Of a DNA stretch of 39,063 nt, positions 3,677 through 39,063 are shown piece by piece. Both the position numbers and the translations under genes were made by a program. Within the stretch, counting starts at the first letter, position 1. Every line of letters starts with the position of its first letter. This DNA is from Acidimicrobiales bacterium (GTDB lineage: Bacteria; Actinomycetota; Acidimicrobiia; Acidimicrobiales; AC-14): positions 1 to 39,063 of the forward strand of contig JAODBK010000078.1 in NCBI GenBank assembly GCA_025463925.1, read 5' to 3'. The notes below the pieces were generated by a model that saw only the letters and a program-made list of their open reading frames with translations, had not been told where the DNA came from and made no database searches.

Positions 3677-4860
3677 AGGATCGGATCCCCCATGCGGGCG
3701 AAGCACCCGGCGATGTTGTCGCCGAGGAACGCATCCCTTACCGCTGGGTCGATTGCCGCTAGCTCCTTCTCGTAGTGCTCGATCGGTCCGGCGCTGCCCT
3801 CGAAGTGCGGGTAGTCCGACGAGAACACGGCGACCTCCGGCAGTGAGTCGAAGAGCGGTAGCGGCGATTCCTTCGGAGTCGGGAGCGGCGAGATCCGGAC
3901 ATTGCGGCGGACGTACTCGCTGGGCTTCAACGGCAACTTGTACTCGCCGAGGATCAGCGGGCTGACGCCTGGTTCGGCCATCGTGTCCATCTTGGCGACG
4001 GTCCCGGGCAGCCAGTCGACGCCGAGCTCCGAGATCAGGACTGTCAACCTCGGGTGCCGCTCGAACACGCCGCCAAAAACCATCGCGTTCAGGAAGACCT
4101 GCGTCGTCTGATGAGGATGCAGGATCGAAATCAGGCGGATCAATGCGGGATCGTCGGTGTTCGCCCAGCCCGGGTGATACGACGCCGGGCTCATCCCCAC
4201 GTGGACGTGCGCCACCATCCCGAGATCCTCGGCTGCTGACCAAAGGCGGTCGAAGTCCGGGTGGTGAGGCGGGATGTCGCCGACGGGTTCGGCCGAGATC
4301 AGGAAGGTGCGGCTCCCCCGCTCCCGCATCCGGGTCATCTCACCAATCGTCCACTCGAGATCTTCGAAGCGGAGGTTCGTGACCGGCAGCAGCCGGTCGC
4401 GATGGCCGGCGACGGCATCGCTCATCCACGTGTTCACCGCTTCGAGCGCCGCCTGTCCGAGCGCGGGGTCGCTGATGGCGCGCGCCAACGTGTAGCCGAG
4501 ACCCGAGATAATGCACTGCACATCGATGCCCTGATCATCGAGCCATCCCACCCGCCGCGCCGGATCGACCAACTGATGGAACTGCGATGCGCCGGGATAG
4601 CCGAGGTCGGCCGGCCGGTCCGGCGAGAACATGGCCTCCATCGCCGGCGTGGTGAGGCGGTCGATCGCCATGCGCCGATCGGCCGGCACGTGCCGGAGCA
4701 GGTCGTCGCTCACGAAGTAGGCGAACATCTCGGCGCTGTCCATCCGGAACCGCGGATCGGTGTCCGGGAAGCGCTCGGGGAAACGCTGCTTCAGGGACGG
4801 GAAAGCATCGAGCCAGGTGGCGGCAGGCTCGGCGTGCGCGTCGACGTCAATGATCGTCAT
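3673..4860 (-). CDS. Amidohydrolase family protein, paralogue of the 2055-3209 gene
   Basis: A 395-aa protein of the same amidohydrolase_2 family, with Asp7/His9 in IDVDAHAEP, His220, His269 and Asp349 in FSSDYPHFEG. It shares long identical segments with the protein at 2055-3209, for example QVFLNAMVFGGVFERHP, so the pair arose by duplication, with the NTF2-like gene now between them. It is the first gene of the operon. GAAGGCG just upstream is a reasonable ribosome binding site, and a TATAAC element sits in the 51-bp gap to tetR. The metal-ligand set looks complete in both paralogues, so both may be active, perhaps on successive or related substrates. Confidence 0.9.
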   Translation of the reverse strand: MTIIDVDAHAEPAATWLDAFPSLKQRFPERFPDTDPRFRMDSAEMFAYFVSDDLLRHVPADRRMAIDRLTTPAMEAMFSPDRPADLGYPGASQFHQLVDPARRVGWLDDQGIDVQCIISGLGYTLARAISDPALGQAALEAVNTWMSDAVAGHRDRLLPVTNLRFEDLEWTIGEMTRMRERGSRTFLISAEPVGDIPPHHPDFDRLWSAAEDLGMVAHVHVGMSPASYHPGWANTDDPALIRLISILHPHQTTQVFLNAMVFGGVFERHPRLTVLISELGVDWLPGTVAKMDTMAEPGVSPLILGEYKLPLKPSEYVRRNVRISPLPTPKESPLPLFDSLPEVAVFSSDYPHFEGSAGPIEHYEKELAAIDPAVRDAFLGDNIAGCFARMGDPIL

Positions 4861-23662: not shown

Positions 23663-24688
23663 ATGGCCGACGTCGCCGTGAACCGGGGCGAACCTGGACT
23701 GCTGGCCAAGTGGCGCCACGTCCTGCGCACGACCAACCCACCCGCCGGCCGGCTCGACCTCGTCTCCAAGTGGCTGGTGCTGACGCGGGCCGCGGTGCTC
23801 CCGATGACGATGACCGCGGGCGCGATCGCCGGGCTGCTCGCGGTGCACCAGCACGGCTTCGACAGCCGGTGGTACGCGCTGTCGTTCGTCGGCATCGTGC
23901 TGGCCCACGCGGCCAACAACTTGATGAACGACCTGTTCGATCTCGATGTCGGGCTCGACAGCGACCAGTACCCGAGAGGCCTCTACGCCCCGCACCCGGT
24001 GCTGTCGGGGATGATCAGCCGGCGCGGATTGGCGCTCGCGTCGTTGGTCGTGAACCTCGTCGACCTCGCCATCCTCGCCGTGCTGACCGCGGTCCGGGGC
24101 TGGCCGGTCGTCGCGTTCGCGGTCGCCGGGTTCGTGCTGAGCGCGGCGTACACCGCGCCGCCGCTGCGGTTGAAGAAGCGTGGCCTCGGCGAGCCCGACG
24201 TGCTGGTCGTGTGGGGCCCGCTGATGGTGGGCGGCACCTACTACTCGGCGGTCGGCCACCTCCCGTGGCAGGTGATCGCGGCGTCGATCCCCTATGGGCT
24301 GCTCTGCACCGCGGTGCTCATGGGCAAGCACGTCGACAAGATCCCGTGGGACGCGGCCGAGGGCATCAAGACCATGCCGGTGCTGCTCGGTGAGGCGCGA
24401 GCCCGCCGGGTCACCCAGGCGCTGATCGCGGCGTTCTACGTCACCGTCGCGGCCGACGTGCTCGCGGGCGCGCTCCCCTGGCCGGCGCTGGTGGCCTTCG
24501 TCGCCCTGCCGACCGCGACAAAGGCATGGCAGGCGCTGTCGGCCGGCCGGCCGGAGGCGCCGCCCCACGACTACCCGATCTGGCCGTTGTGGTTCGCGGC
24601 CGTCGCCTTCCTCCACACCCGCCGGGCCGGCGCGCTGCTCGTCCTCGGCCTGATCGCGGCCGCGGTCTTCAACGTCACGCCGCTTTGA
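23663..24688 (+). CDS. UbiA-family prenyltransferase
   Basis: A 341-aa integral membrane protein with about eight to nine transmembrane segments. The first Asp-rich motif is NDLFDLDVGLDSD (89-101) and the second lies in HVDKIPWDAAEGIKT (about 220-235), so the metal-diphosphate site is complete. The family transfers polyprenyl chains to aromatic acceptors; MenA (menaquinone synthesis) is the most likely role in an actinobacterium, but UbiA paralogues are diverse and no men gene is near. TAGGCT at 23649-23654 lies 8 nt before the ATG, pointing to its own leaderless transcript even though leuD ends only 11 bp upstream. Confidence 0.87.
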   Translation: MADVAVNRGEPGLLAKWRHVLRTTNPPAGRLDLVSKWLVLTRAAVLPMTMTAGAIAGLLAVHQHGFDSRWYALSFVGIVLAHAANNLMNDLFDLDVGLDSDQYPRGLYAPHPVLSGMISRRGLALASLVVNLVDLAILAVLTAVRGWPVVAFAVAGFVLSAAYTAPPLRLKKRGLGEPDVLVVWGPLMVGGTYYSAVGHLPWQVIAASIPYGLLCTAVLMGKHVDKIPWDAAEGIKTMPVLLGEARARRVTQALIAAFYVTVAADVLAGALPWPALVAFVALPTATKAWQALSAGRPEAPPHDYPIWPLWFAAVAFLHTRRAGALLVLGLIAAAVFNVTPL

Positions 24689-24693
24689 CCGCA

Positions 24694-24718
24694 GTTGGTG
24701 TCGCATGGCGACACCAAC
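24694..24718. terminator. Hairpin between convergent UbiA and leuA genes
   Basis: An 11-bp perfect stem (GTTGGTGTCGC / GCGACACCAAC) with a 3-nt loop starts 5 nt after the UbiA stop codon and lies 28 nt from the leuA stop on the other strand. It lacks a U-tract. It is probably a bidirectional terminator. Confidence 0.6.
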
Positions 24719-24746
24719 GATGTCCAGAATCGACAGGGCGGGCGGG

Positions 24747-35818: not shown

Positions 35819-37501
35819 TTAGGGCTGGGTGATCGCGCCCATCTCGGCGCCGGTGCAGAGCGTCGCGTACTTGGCCAGCACACCCCTGGTGTACCGCGGT
35901 TCGGGCGCCTTCCAGCCGGCCTTCCGCCCGGCGATGGTGGCGTCGTCGACGAGCAGGTCGATGGTGCGGGCCTCGGCGTCGATGACGATCCGGTCGCCCT
36001 CCTCGACGAACGCGATCGGCCCGCCGACCACCGCCTCGGGCGCGACGTGGCCGACGCAGAAGCCGTGGGTGCCGCCGGAGAAGCGGCCGTCGGTGATCAG
36101 CGCGGCGTCGGCGCCGCGGCCGGCCCCCTTCATCGCGCCGGTGATCGCCAGCATCTCGCGCATGCCCGGGCCGCCCTTCGGCCCCTCATAGCGGATGACG
36201 ACGATGTCGCCGGCGTCGATGCGGCCGGCGAGCACCGCTTCCATCGCCTTGTCCTCGCCGTCGAAGACGCGCGCGATGCCGTCGAAGCGGAGGTCCTGCT
36301 CGAGCCCCGCGGTCTTCACGACCGCGCCCTTCGGGGCAAGGCTGCCGGTGAGCACCGCGATGCCGCCCTGCCGGTGGATCGGGTCGGTGAGCGGGTGGAC
36401 GACGTTGCCGTCGGGCTTCGGCGGGTCGAGTGTGGCCAGGTTCTCGGCCATCGTCTTTCCGGTGACGGTGAGGCAGTCGCCGTGGAGCAGACCGGCGTCG
36501 AGCAGCTCGCGCAGGACGACGGGCACGCCGCCGATGTTGTCGAGGTCGACCATGTGGTACTTGCCATGCGGCTTCATGTCGGCGACGTGGGCGACGCGGC
36601 GACCGACCTCGTTGAACGTCTCGAGCTCGAGCTCGACCTGCGCCTCGTTGGCGATGGCGAGCAGGTGCAGCACCGCGTTGGTGGAGCCGCCGAGCGCCAT
36701 CGTCACCGCGATCGCGTTCTCGAAGGCCTCGCGCGTGAGGATCTGGCGCGGTCGGATGCCGAGCTCGAGCAGCCTGACGACCGCTTGCCCGCTGGCGAAC
36801 GCGTAGTCGTCCCGTCGCCGGTCGACCGCGGGCGCGCTGGCGCTGCCGGGGAGGCACATGCCTAGGGCCTCGGCGACGCTGGCCATGGTGTTGGCGGTGA
36901 ACATGCCGGCGCAGCTGCCCTCGGTCGGGCAGGCGTTGTGCTCGATGAGGCTGAGCTCGTCTGCGGTGAGGCTGCCGGCGGCGTGGGCGCCGACCGCCTC
37001 GAACACGCTCACGATGTCGAGGGCCTCGCCGCGTGCGCCGCGGCCGGGCAGGATGCTGCCGCCGTAGAGGAACACGCTCGGAAGGTTCAGCCGGGCCGCC
37101 GCCATCAGCATGCCGGGCAACGACTTGTCGCAACCGGCGAAGGTGACCAGCCCGTCGAGCCGCTCGGCGTGCATGACCGTCTCGACGCTGTCGGCGATGA
37201 CCTCCCGGCTGACGAGCGACGCCCGCATGCCCTCGTGGCCCATCGAGATGCCGTCGCTCACCGCGATCGTCACGAACTCGATCGGGAAACCGCCGGCGTC
37301 GCGCACGCCCAGCTTGGCCCGCTTGGCCAGCCGGTCGAGCGGCATGTTGCACGGCGTGACCTCGTTCCAGCTGCTCGCCACGCCGATCTGCGGCTTGCCC
37401 CAGTCGGCGTCGGTCATGCCGACGGCCCGCAACATCGCCCGCGCCGGCGCCCGCTCGAACCCGTCGGTGACATCGCGGCTCCGCGGCTTCATGTCGGCCA
37501 T
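35819..37501 (-). CDS. ilvD: Dihydroxy-acid dehydratase
   Basis: A 560-aa IlvD/Edd family protein. Cys51, Cys124 (GCDKSLPGM) and Cys197 ([13 protein letters not shown]) have the spacing of the [2Fe-2S] dihydroxy-acid dehydratases. It dehydrates dihydroxyisovalerate and dihydroxymethylvalerate to the 2-oxo acids. The ATG at 37501 has TAACCT (37510-37515) 8 nt upstream and so is probably leaderless; an ATG three codons later is also possible. No leader peptide or attenuator is visible before ilvD, unlike ilvB, leuA and leuB. The palindrome at 37537-37571 lies just upstream of its promoter. Confidence 0.96.
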
Positions 37502-37536: not shown

Positions 37537-37571
37537 GGAGTGTTTGTCGGCGTATGGCCGACAAACACTCC
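37537..37571 (+). repeat. 35-bp palindromic inverted repeat, left of the DUF559 gene
   Basis: Arms GGAGTGTTTGTCGGC (37537-37551) and its exact complement (37557-37571) enclose the loop GTATG. The reverse complement of 38545-38579 is the same sequence except for one loop base, so the two elements are 34/35 identical inverted copies that bracket the gene at 37613-38539. This copy lies between divergent promoters, where an ordinary terminator would not be expected. No target-site duplication is evident in the immediate flanks. Confidence 0.85.
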
Positions 37572-37612
37572 CCGAGACGTTGATGTCTCACCCGATTCGT
37601 ACGGTTCGCCGC

Positions 37613-38539
37613 ATGCAAACGCCACTCGACCTTCGTCTCGCCGCGGTGGCGGCCCAGCAACACGGAGTCTTCTCGGCCGCACAAGCGGCCGCGCTCGGCT
37701 TCTCGCGCGACATGATGTCCGACCGCGTCATAGCCGGTCGGTGGGGGCGGATGCACAGGGGTGTGTTCCGCATTGCGGGCTCGCTGCCGAGTTGGGACCA
37801 GAAGCTCCTCGCGGCCTGGCTCGCCGCAGGCAACGACGCCGTCCTGTCGCACATCACGGCCGGGCGGTTGCACACCTTCCCGCTGACCGACGAAGCGATC
37901 GAGATCACGATTGGTGCCACTGCCCGCAGGTCGCGAAATGGCATCCGGTTCCATCGCGCATCCGAGCTCGCGTTCGTCGACCGGTGCACTGTCGGCGTAT
38001 TCGTTGCGACCTCGCCGACGCGGACCTTGATCGACATGTTCCCGGTCCTCCGCAGGGAGAAGTTCGTCGCGTGCGTCGACACGGCCGTGACGAAGCGGGT
38101 GACCAGCGTCCCGTACATCCGTCGCCGTATCAGCGCACTGCCGAAGCGAGGACGTCCGCACCTCGCGCCGCTCGACGAGCTGCTGACGACGCGCTACCCG
38201 CACGAACGCGCTCCCGAGTCGCCGCTCGAGCGCAGTCTCATCGACCTGTTGAGCGAGCTTCCCGGCGACCTGATCATCCCCCAACACTGGGTGCAACTTC
38301 CGAACGGCGAATGGGCCCGGCTGGATGGCGCGTGGCCGTCCGAGATGCTCGCCGTCGAGGGCGACAGTTACCTCCACCACTCGGCGCCGGACGATTGGGC
38401 GCTCGACGGCACGAAACGCGTCGTGCTCACCGCTATGGGATGGCGCATCCTGCCGTTCACACACTTTGACATAACGACGCGGCCGCGCTGGGTGCTCGAG
38501 ACTGTCGCCCGAGCGCGAAAACTGCGCCGCGCGTCGTGA
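37613..38539 (+). CDS. AbiEi-type winged helix / DUF559 (Vsr-like endonuclease fold) protein
   Basis: A 308-aa protein. Residues about 5-55 resemble the winged-helix domain of AbiEi-type antitoxins ([18 protein letters not shown]...[13 protein letters not shown]). The C-terminal 100 residues match DUF559, a Vsr/PD-(D/E)xK-like fold: Asp238 in ARLDGAWP, Glu249 and Asp251 in [10 protein letters not shown], Arg269 and the closing [12 protein letters not shown]. The family is common in actinobacteria; its function is unknown, and no AbiEii toxin is adjacent. The start at 37613 is supported by TACGGT (37600-37605) 7 nt upstream; an ATG at 37583 would add 10 residues. It stands alone, bracketed by matching 35-bp palindromes, suggesting a mobile or selfish unit. 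Nuclease activity is inferred only. Confidence 0.82.
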
Positions 38540-38544
38540 TCACT

Positions 38545-38579
38545 GGAGTGTTTGTCGGCTATACGCCGACAAACACTCC
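38545..38579 (-). repeat. 35-bp palindromic inverted repeat, right of the DUF559 gene
   Basis: The same 15-bp arms as at 37537-37571 enclose the loop TATAC. Read on the minus strand it matches the left copy at 34 of 35 bases. It starts 5 nt after the DUF559 stop and ends one base before the gatB stop codon. In this position it could also serve as a bidirectional terminator; it has no U-tract. Confidence 0.85.
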
Positions 38580-39063
38580 TCAGGACAGGCCGGCGCGGGC
38601 GCGGAGGAGGGCGGTGACGTCCTTGCCGTTGGCCTTGCCGCCGGTGGCCTTCATGACCTCGCCGACCAAGAGGCCGATCACCTTCTGGTTGCCGGCCTCG
38701 AGGTCCGCGAAGTCGGACGGGCGGGCCGCGATCACCTGGTCGACCGCGGCGGCCAGCGAGTCCGCGGCCATCTCCTCGAAGCCGTGCTTGGCGGCGATCG
38801 CCGCGGGATCGCCGCCCTCGACGCCGGCCTGCATGTCGCCGAGCACGATCTTGGCCTGGGTCGCCGTCAGCCGGCCGCCGGCCTGCAGCTGCACGAGGGC
38901 CGCGAACGACGCCGCCGGCGGCAGGTCGAGGTCGGTCGACAGGTCGTGCTCGGCGTGGGTCAGCGCCAGTCGGGCGTCGGCGCCCGCGGCCAGGACGTCG
39001 GCCAGCCAGGCGTCGATCCCCCGCTCGACGAGCAGCGCGACCTCGCCCGGCGCGACGCCGGCC
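38580..39063 (-). CDS. gatB: Aspartyl/glutamyl-tRNA(Asn/Gln) amidotransferase subunit B, C-terminal part
   Basis: The frame is open from the window edge to a TGA at 38580-38582, giving the last 160 residues. It shows the helical GatB middle region (ALLVERGIDAWLADVLAAGADARLALTH, LSTDLDLPPAASFAALVQLQAGGRLTATQAK) and the YqeY-like tail (IAAKHGFEEMAAD, IGLLVGEVMKATGGKANGKDVTALLRARAGLS). GatB with GatA and GatC converts Glu-tRNA-Gln to Gln-tRNA-Gln. The gene is cut by the window end, not broken. Confidence 0.93.
   Translation of the reverse strand, partial: AGVAPGEVALLVERGIDAWLADVLAAGADARLALTHAEHDLSTDLDLPPAASFAALVQLQAGGRLTATQAKIVLGDMQAGVEGGDPAAIAAKHGFEEMAADSLAAAVDQVIAARPSDFADLEAGNQKVIGLLVGEVMKATGGKANGKDVTALLRARAGLS

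Follow-up and report, generated by a model that had tools for sequence, protein, structure and literature searches.

What kind of element is a single gene closed in on both sides by the same palindrome? The window, by which we mean the whole stretch of 39,063 nucleotides analysed here from an Acidimicrobiales bacterium, contains near its right end a unit of 1043 bp (37537-38579) in which two palindromes enclose only one gene. Palindrome 1 (37537-37571) forms the upstream end of this cassette and palindrome 2 (38545-38579) its downstream end. Each is 35 bp long, with perfect 15-bp arms and a 5-nt loop, and the two are identical at 34/35 positions as inverted copies and at 30/35 as direct copies, which confirms the coordinates, arm length and inverted identity given in an initial annotation of this DNA. 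Folded as DNA hairpins they reach -18.5 and -18.2 kcal/mol, and 0/200 shuffles were equally stable. With at most one mismatch, the 12-mer GTGTTTGTCGGC has four matches in the window, all within the cassette arms, where 0.11 would be expected. An RNA family was considered for the locus and rejected, as the one match offered by Rfam was at chance level, with 17.5 bits where the gathering score is 100. The neighbours, named by eye, are ilvD on the left (35819-37501, minus strand) and the end of gatB on the right (38580-39063, minus strand, cut by the window end). Palindrome 1 is flanked by divergent genes (ilvD on the minus strand, the enclosed nuclease-like gene on the plus strand), as had been remarked from the letters alone, and palindrome 2 by convergent genes, immediately abutting the gatB stop codon.

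The enclosed gene (37613-38539, plus strand, start codon estimated) encodes a protein of 308 aa. Pfam places an AbiEi_4 winged helix at residues 8-55 (E=2.6e-8), and the MTES_1575/DUF559 Vsr-like region is matched at residues 243-298, where the window protein taken alone gives MTES_1575 at E=6e-4, under Pfam's cutoff. Among 27 aligned homologs, MTES_1575 is recovered in 25, AbiEi_4 in 23 and DUF559 in 21, and the initial proposal of a winged helix joined to a Vsr-like nuclease is borne out by the Pfam match at one end and the family alignment at the other. No tyrosine transposase domain appeared in Pfam scans of the window protein and the aligned homologs. In the 27-sequence alignment E206 and E249 (window-protein numbering) are invariant, and D238, D251, H256 and D265 nearly so; in a set of 89 homologs each conserved nuclease residue is found in 84-89 sequences, and E243 of that set, equivalent to E249 of the window protein, in 89/89. 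Profile comparison reached 3hrl (E=2e-6) and 3r3p, listed as a 'mobile intron protein' (E=1.5e-4), and Vsr itself only at E=0.03-0.09. We take 3r3p to be I-Bth0305I, a homing endonuclease of a mobile intron. An AlphaFold model built from three sequences was poor (pLDDT 42). By the family alignment the C-terminal domain is MTES_1575/DUF559, and by profile it is related to Vsr-like nucleases; MTES_1575 is described as a Vsr-fold REase in the paper that defines the domain (PMC3710099).

If the palindromes belong to a mobile cassette, where else do they occur? In the 4.08-Mb genome of this bacterium there are two exact copies of the cassette palindrome, both at the cassette. The 15-mer arm with up to two mismatches has four additional single matches, a number equal to the reversed control count (3 + 1), and the palindrome was found in none of nine other genomes of the family. 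A palindrome widespread without the gene, which the initial annotation had set against mobility, is therefore not what we find. The same genome contains sibling cassettes, L067, L068 and L069, whose palindromes lie at 11, 17 and 8 places respectively, two of each at the gene itself, among own-genome matches listed up to E=5.6e-4 (21 of 76, listed after that value, were dropped). One solo palindrome of the L068 family falls within the window (24681-24741), between convergent genes and separate from the reported cassette; it is 87% identical to the family's palindrome, and the L068 cassette is on another contig. For 14 own-genome solo copies the context could be read, genes being called with a small codon model for which four genes of the window served as training set: eight lie between convergent genes, five between genes of the same direction, none between divergent genes, and one is unclassified. 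Two of the six own-genome homologs examined are without a matched pair at threshold (L289 scored 39 and L290 27). The genome holds at least four palindrome-flanked cassettes, and the reported one is that whose palindrome has not spread, which would fit a recent arrival.

The insertion site itself can be compared between relatives. An ilvD match is present in 10/10 family genomes. In one of them (G001) the gatB stop and the ilvD start are 30 bp apart, with neither cassette nor palindrome there. The own genome has 35 bp between ilvD and palindrome 1, and 0 bp between palindrome 2 and the gatB stop. Given this empty site and this spacing, the cassette has the appearance of a clean insertion whose limits are its own palindromes. 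A second relative (G007) has a different gene at the site, by eye resembling a chorismate-using synthase. Vertical fixation of the gene between ilvD and gatB, the other outcome that had been held to speak against a mobile cassette, is thus not seen; in the seven other family genomes gatB was not found in the fetched stretch, some stretches ending early. Outside the family, homologs of about 34-36% identity are also neighbours of these genes. The G045 homolog adjoins gatB and is upstream of ilvD, in the opposite orientation to the own-genome gene; that of G041 adjoins gatB, and that of G105 is upstream of ilvD. This distribution fits repeated insertion, or inversion and loss. Three further pairs of homologs (L055/L122, L047/L080 and L078/L125) apparently share a chromosomal site and are oppositely oriented to their neighbours.

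The palindrome-flanked layout is common in the class. Homologs are present in 149/296 class genomes. Taking 90 of the listed matches, we obtained the gene for 89 (none was found in L103) and sufficient flank for 85, four loci with short flanks being dropped. Flanks were called matched when a segment shared between the two scored at least 40. Matched flanks were found in 62 of the 85 homologs, against 4/2097 mismatched pairings, and six shifted controls gave 0-1 matched per 78-81 windows each; the other 23/85 homologs have no matched pair at threshold. With neighbour genes as a control, 1/52 scored 40 or more, and that gene is bracketed by tandem palindromes resembling the flanks of the cassette beside it, L061. 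The shared segments are mostly imperfect hairpins, and 7/62 pairs have no aligned segment more stable than -8 kcal/mol, in some cases because the alignment covered the hairpin incompletely. The pair is direct in 31 of the 62 cassettes, inverted in 30 and a tie in one. In 50/62 the distance from the end of the upstream aligned copy to the estimated start is 45-95 bp, and the upstream and downstream copies are equally well conserved. Three cassettes (L111, L102 and L164) have tandem-duplicated palindromes on each side, recalling the BIME-type clusters of REPs.

Outside the class, a phylum-wide set that includes two named Nocardioides loci has matched flanks in 13/28 cases against 2/756 mismatched pairings (two of 30 loci having been dropped for short flanks), and in 10/24 without its four same-class loci. 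A looser GTTTGTCGGC palindrome matches 32 loci, two of them with a homolog (L012 and L024); most of the others, in distant bacteria, may be chance matches or unrelated repeats. The cassette of Nocardioides sp. REDSEA-S33_B3 (L024, 3148-4384) is of the same kind, with a related GTTTGTCGGC arm, and two solo copies lie elsewhere in that assembly (L005, 1157-1186, and L011, 3045-3074), a one-sided TCGTC-type extension being common to the copies. In Nocardioides sp. BWSM_104 two palindrome types, GGTTTGTCGG and GGTTCATCGG, are adjacent to each other both in L012 (4536-5872), where a homolog accompanies them, and in L009 (5794-5885), where none does. Palindromes of the AGGAGTTTGTCGGC type in betaproteobacterial and other assemblies (L014, L017 and L023), with no homolog in the stretch, are possibly unrelated repeats. 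Spread by phages or plasmids was also considered and set aside: no relative was found in viral contigs, in a search reaching close relatives only, or in plasmids or phages.

Palindrome sequences differ between loci and track the protein. Over the 62 cassettes (1869 pairs without flank homology), protein identity is correlated with palindrome similarity (Mantel r=0.335, 0/2000 permutations). In 32/36 syntenic pairs, which are not independent, conservation is lower in the gene than in its flanks. Within copies, the inner stem pairs hardly more often than chance would give and stem covariation is weak; with pairing as weak as this, an importance of the hairpin as such is not proven. The outer arms were prescribed by the pattern used for the search.

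Two types of dispersed palindrome were followed through the genomes of the class. The first is found in 5/395 class genomes (reversed control 0), with 33 copies in G234, 14 or 18 by pattern length in G278, eight in G351 and two each in G047 and G312. In G234 the homolog of L042 has two of the copies as its flanks. For the remaining 31, no homolog was seen up to 1.5 kb away or as far as the contig reaches, which shows that a palindrome copy can stand without one. Two G278 copies flank a homolog, among 10/18 copies checked. For both L042 and L060, the cognate palindrome is abundant where the gene is present. G234 holds at least two homologs (C77 and C149), and the homolog besides L042 is not flanked by the second type. 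Extra cargo in G234 palindrome pairs was looked for and dropped as a candidate, the four pairs read enclosing unrelated-looking frames. On a contig of G047 (L215, contig C29, 4750 bases) palindrome copies occupy the two ends or their vicinity (104-152 and 4702-4750), a pattern that breaks of the assembly at repeats would produce.

The second type is present in 23/395 genomes, with up to 18 copies each (reversed control 0), and homologs occur in 23/23 of these: 17/17 within the sample in which 149/296 genomes have one overall (p=9e-6), plus 6/6 others. Considering fetched homologs only, in 22 of the 23 genomes (G227 left out), both flanks of an examined homolog match a dispersed copy in eight, one flank in two and neither in 12; a match here means a score of at least 33, and 50/1848 unrelated comparisons reach 32. 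All listed homologs were examined in five of the 12 (G041, G234, G317, G341 and G373). Palindromes lie inside ORFs of at least 150 aa in 33/82 cases, against 398/444 nearby control windows. A solo copy in G057 is absent from the matching site in G081 and G203; the genus has a fourth genome, G167, in which the site was not found.

We consider it somewhat probable that the unit at 37537-38579 is a single-gene element of a REP-like family, in which the partner is a winged-helix/Vsr-like nuclease and the ends are its cognate hairpin palindromes. The larger claim, that a second REP engine has evolved independently, is one that we put just short of even: a nuclease family of this kind would make and spread its own cognate palindromes, with several specificities per genome (at least four here) and without known transposase chemistry, across the genomes of the phylum and two named Nocardioides assemblies. 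We base the reading as a REP-like element on the layout and its recurrence, the locus-specific co-variation, the dispersal mostly outside long genes, the association with the gene, the conserved nuclease residues and the absence at matching sites in some relatives, and we infer from it cognate binding, cutting, copying and movement. In such a process the protein would recognise its cognate palindrome through the winged helix, and the nuclease would nick or cut at that site. Its substrate would probably be a hairpin, a cruciform or DNA in replication, because an enzyme that cut ordinary double strands would damage the chromosome wherever a copy lies. Repair or replication would then copy the palindrome, and occasionally the whole cassette, into new intergenic sites. 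Solo copies could alternatively be scars of lost cassettes. Against our reading we count the unspread palindrome of the cassette, the 23/85 unmatched homologs, the 8/22 pairing of the second type, the weak inner stem, the 7/62 poorly folding pairs and the mixed orientation.

Some of these data could also be read as regulation. If the protein were an AbiEi-type autorepressor, the upstream palindrome would be its operator, the downstream one a terminator or second operator and the dispersed copies its regulon, while the nuclease fold would serve elsewhere, for example in defence. Such a role has a precedent in the AbiEi of the AbiE system, which represses its own promoter via its N-terminal winged helix (PMC3985639); PADLOC AbiEi models match 27/27 aligned members, and the distance of the upstream copy from the start (45-95 bp in 50/62 cassettes) would suit an operator. 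However, the downstream copy is equally conserved, solo copies vary between sister species, and with 0/14 own-genome solo copies between divergent genes and eight between convergent ones, these are not operator positions. We regard autorepression as unlikely. Less likely again is that the palindromes are REPs spread by another enzyme, with the AbiEi-Vsr genes carried along, acting otherwise on the palindromes or serving as preferred targets. The 12/22 genomes in which the second type flanks none of the homologs examined would agree with this. Against it we set the locus-specific pairing of gene and palindrome (62/85; Mantel 0/2000), the presence of the gene in every one of the 23 second-type genomes, and the 31/33 G234 copies lying away from any homolog, as a copy does not require one. 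That the palindromes are mere terminators or insulators and the gene between them vertically inherited seems very improbable: palindrome 2 stands between convergent genes, as a two-way terminator would, and homologs beside gatB and/or ilvD recur in G045, G041 and G105, yet palindrome 1 stands between divergent genes, palindromes belonging to one sequence family recur around genomes, the ilvD-gatB site is empty in G001, and the G045 homolog is oriented differently at the site.

How does the REP-like element that we favour compare with described systems? As described in PMC2817692, REP-RAYT likewise consists of a single chromosomal gene between two palindromes, with related palindromes dispersed outside genes; palindrome and protein vary together, and the gene changes faster than its neighbours. 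The protein here differs from RAYT in being a winged helix plus Vsr-like nuclease without the tyrosine (IS200/IS605-like) transposase domain in Pfam scans. In REP-RAYT the two palindromes are inverted; here the window pair is inverted and the family mixed (31 direct, 30 inverted). There is no GTAG tag: among 59 upstream copies, GTAG or its complement stands close by on the left in 1 and on the right in 4. The copy number of at most 33 contrasts with the over 100 copies of the REPs of RAYTs. The cassette shares the REP-RAYT organisation without belonging to that class. The likeness that the initial annotation drew to REPs around RAYTs proved apt, since the layout is repeated in 62/85 homologs and sibling palindromes are dispersed, but the cassette's own palindrome has two copies only, and for the second dispersed type both flanks match in 8/22 genomes.

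CGTC-tagged REPs are, in a 2013 survey, short dispersed palindromes outside genes, apparently without a dedicated transposase (PMC3733652), and the palindromes here are likewise short and dispersed outside genes. According to the same source, CGTC REPs combine stems of 8-9 bp and loops of 4-5 bp with a CGTC tag that is left unpaired; here the window stem is 15 bp and the dispersed elements are mostly 44-49 nt. CGTC is not enriched: of 59 upstream copies, 2 have it or its complement close by on the left and 7 on the right. With the AbiE type IV toxin-antitoxin system the protein shares an AbiEi-type winged-helix N-terminus (PMC3985639), but the cassette is not AbiE, because no gene for the partner toxin AbiEii lies between the palindromes; its C-terminus is nuclease-like, and cognate palindromes stand on both sides. 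Conserved acidic residues and profile similarity link the protein to Vsr-fold nucleases including PDB 3r3p, from which it differs in forming a single-gene cassette with palindromes.

We found no description of a palindrome-flanked AbiEi/DUF559 nuclease cassette in the open-access papers searched, and a subscription paper may exist. Our results suggest that nuclease-partnered hairpin cassettes are an undescribed kind of self-spreading DNA repeat. What mobilises REPs without RAYTs was left open by the 2013 survey (PMC3733652). Described REPs that have a dedicated partner use RAYT transposases, and the putative partner here is of another kind. As nature offers dozens of these protein-palindrome pairs, one can test directly how AbiEi-type winged helices achieve recognition and what orphan DUF559/Vsr-like nucleases do. 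If our reading is true, genes now labelled as AbiEi antitoxin or defence genes (by PADLOC, in all 27 aligned members) would gain another meaning.
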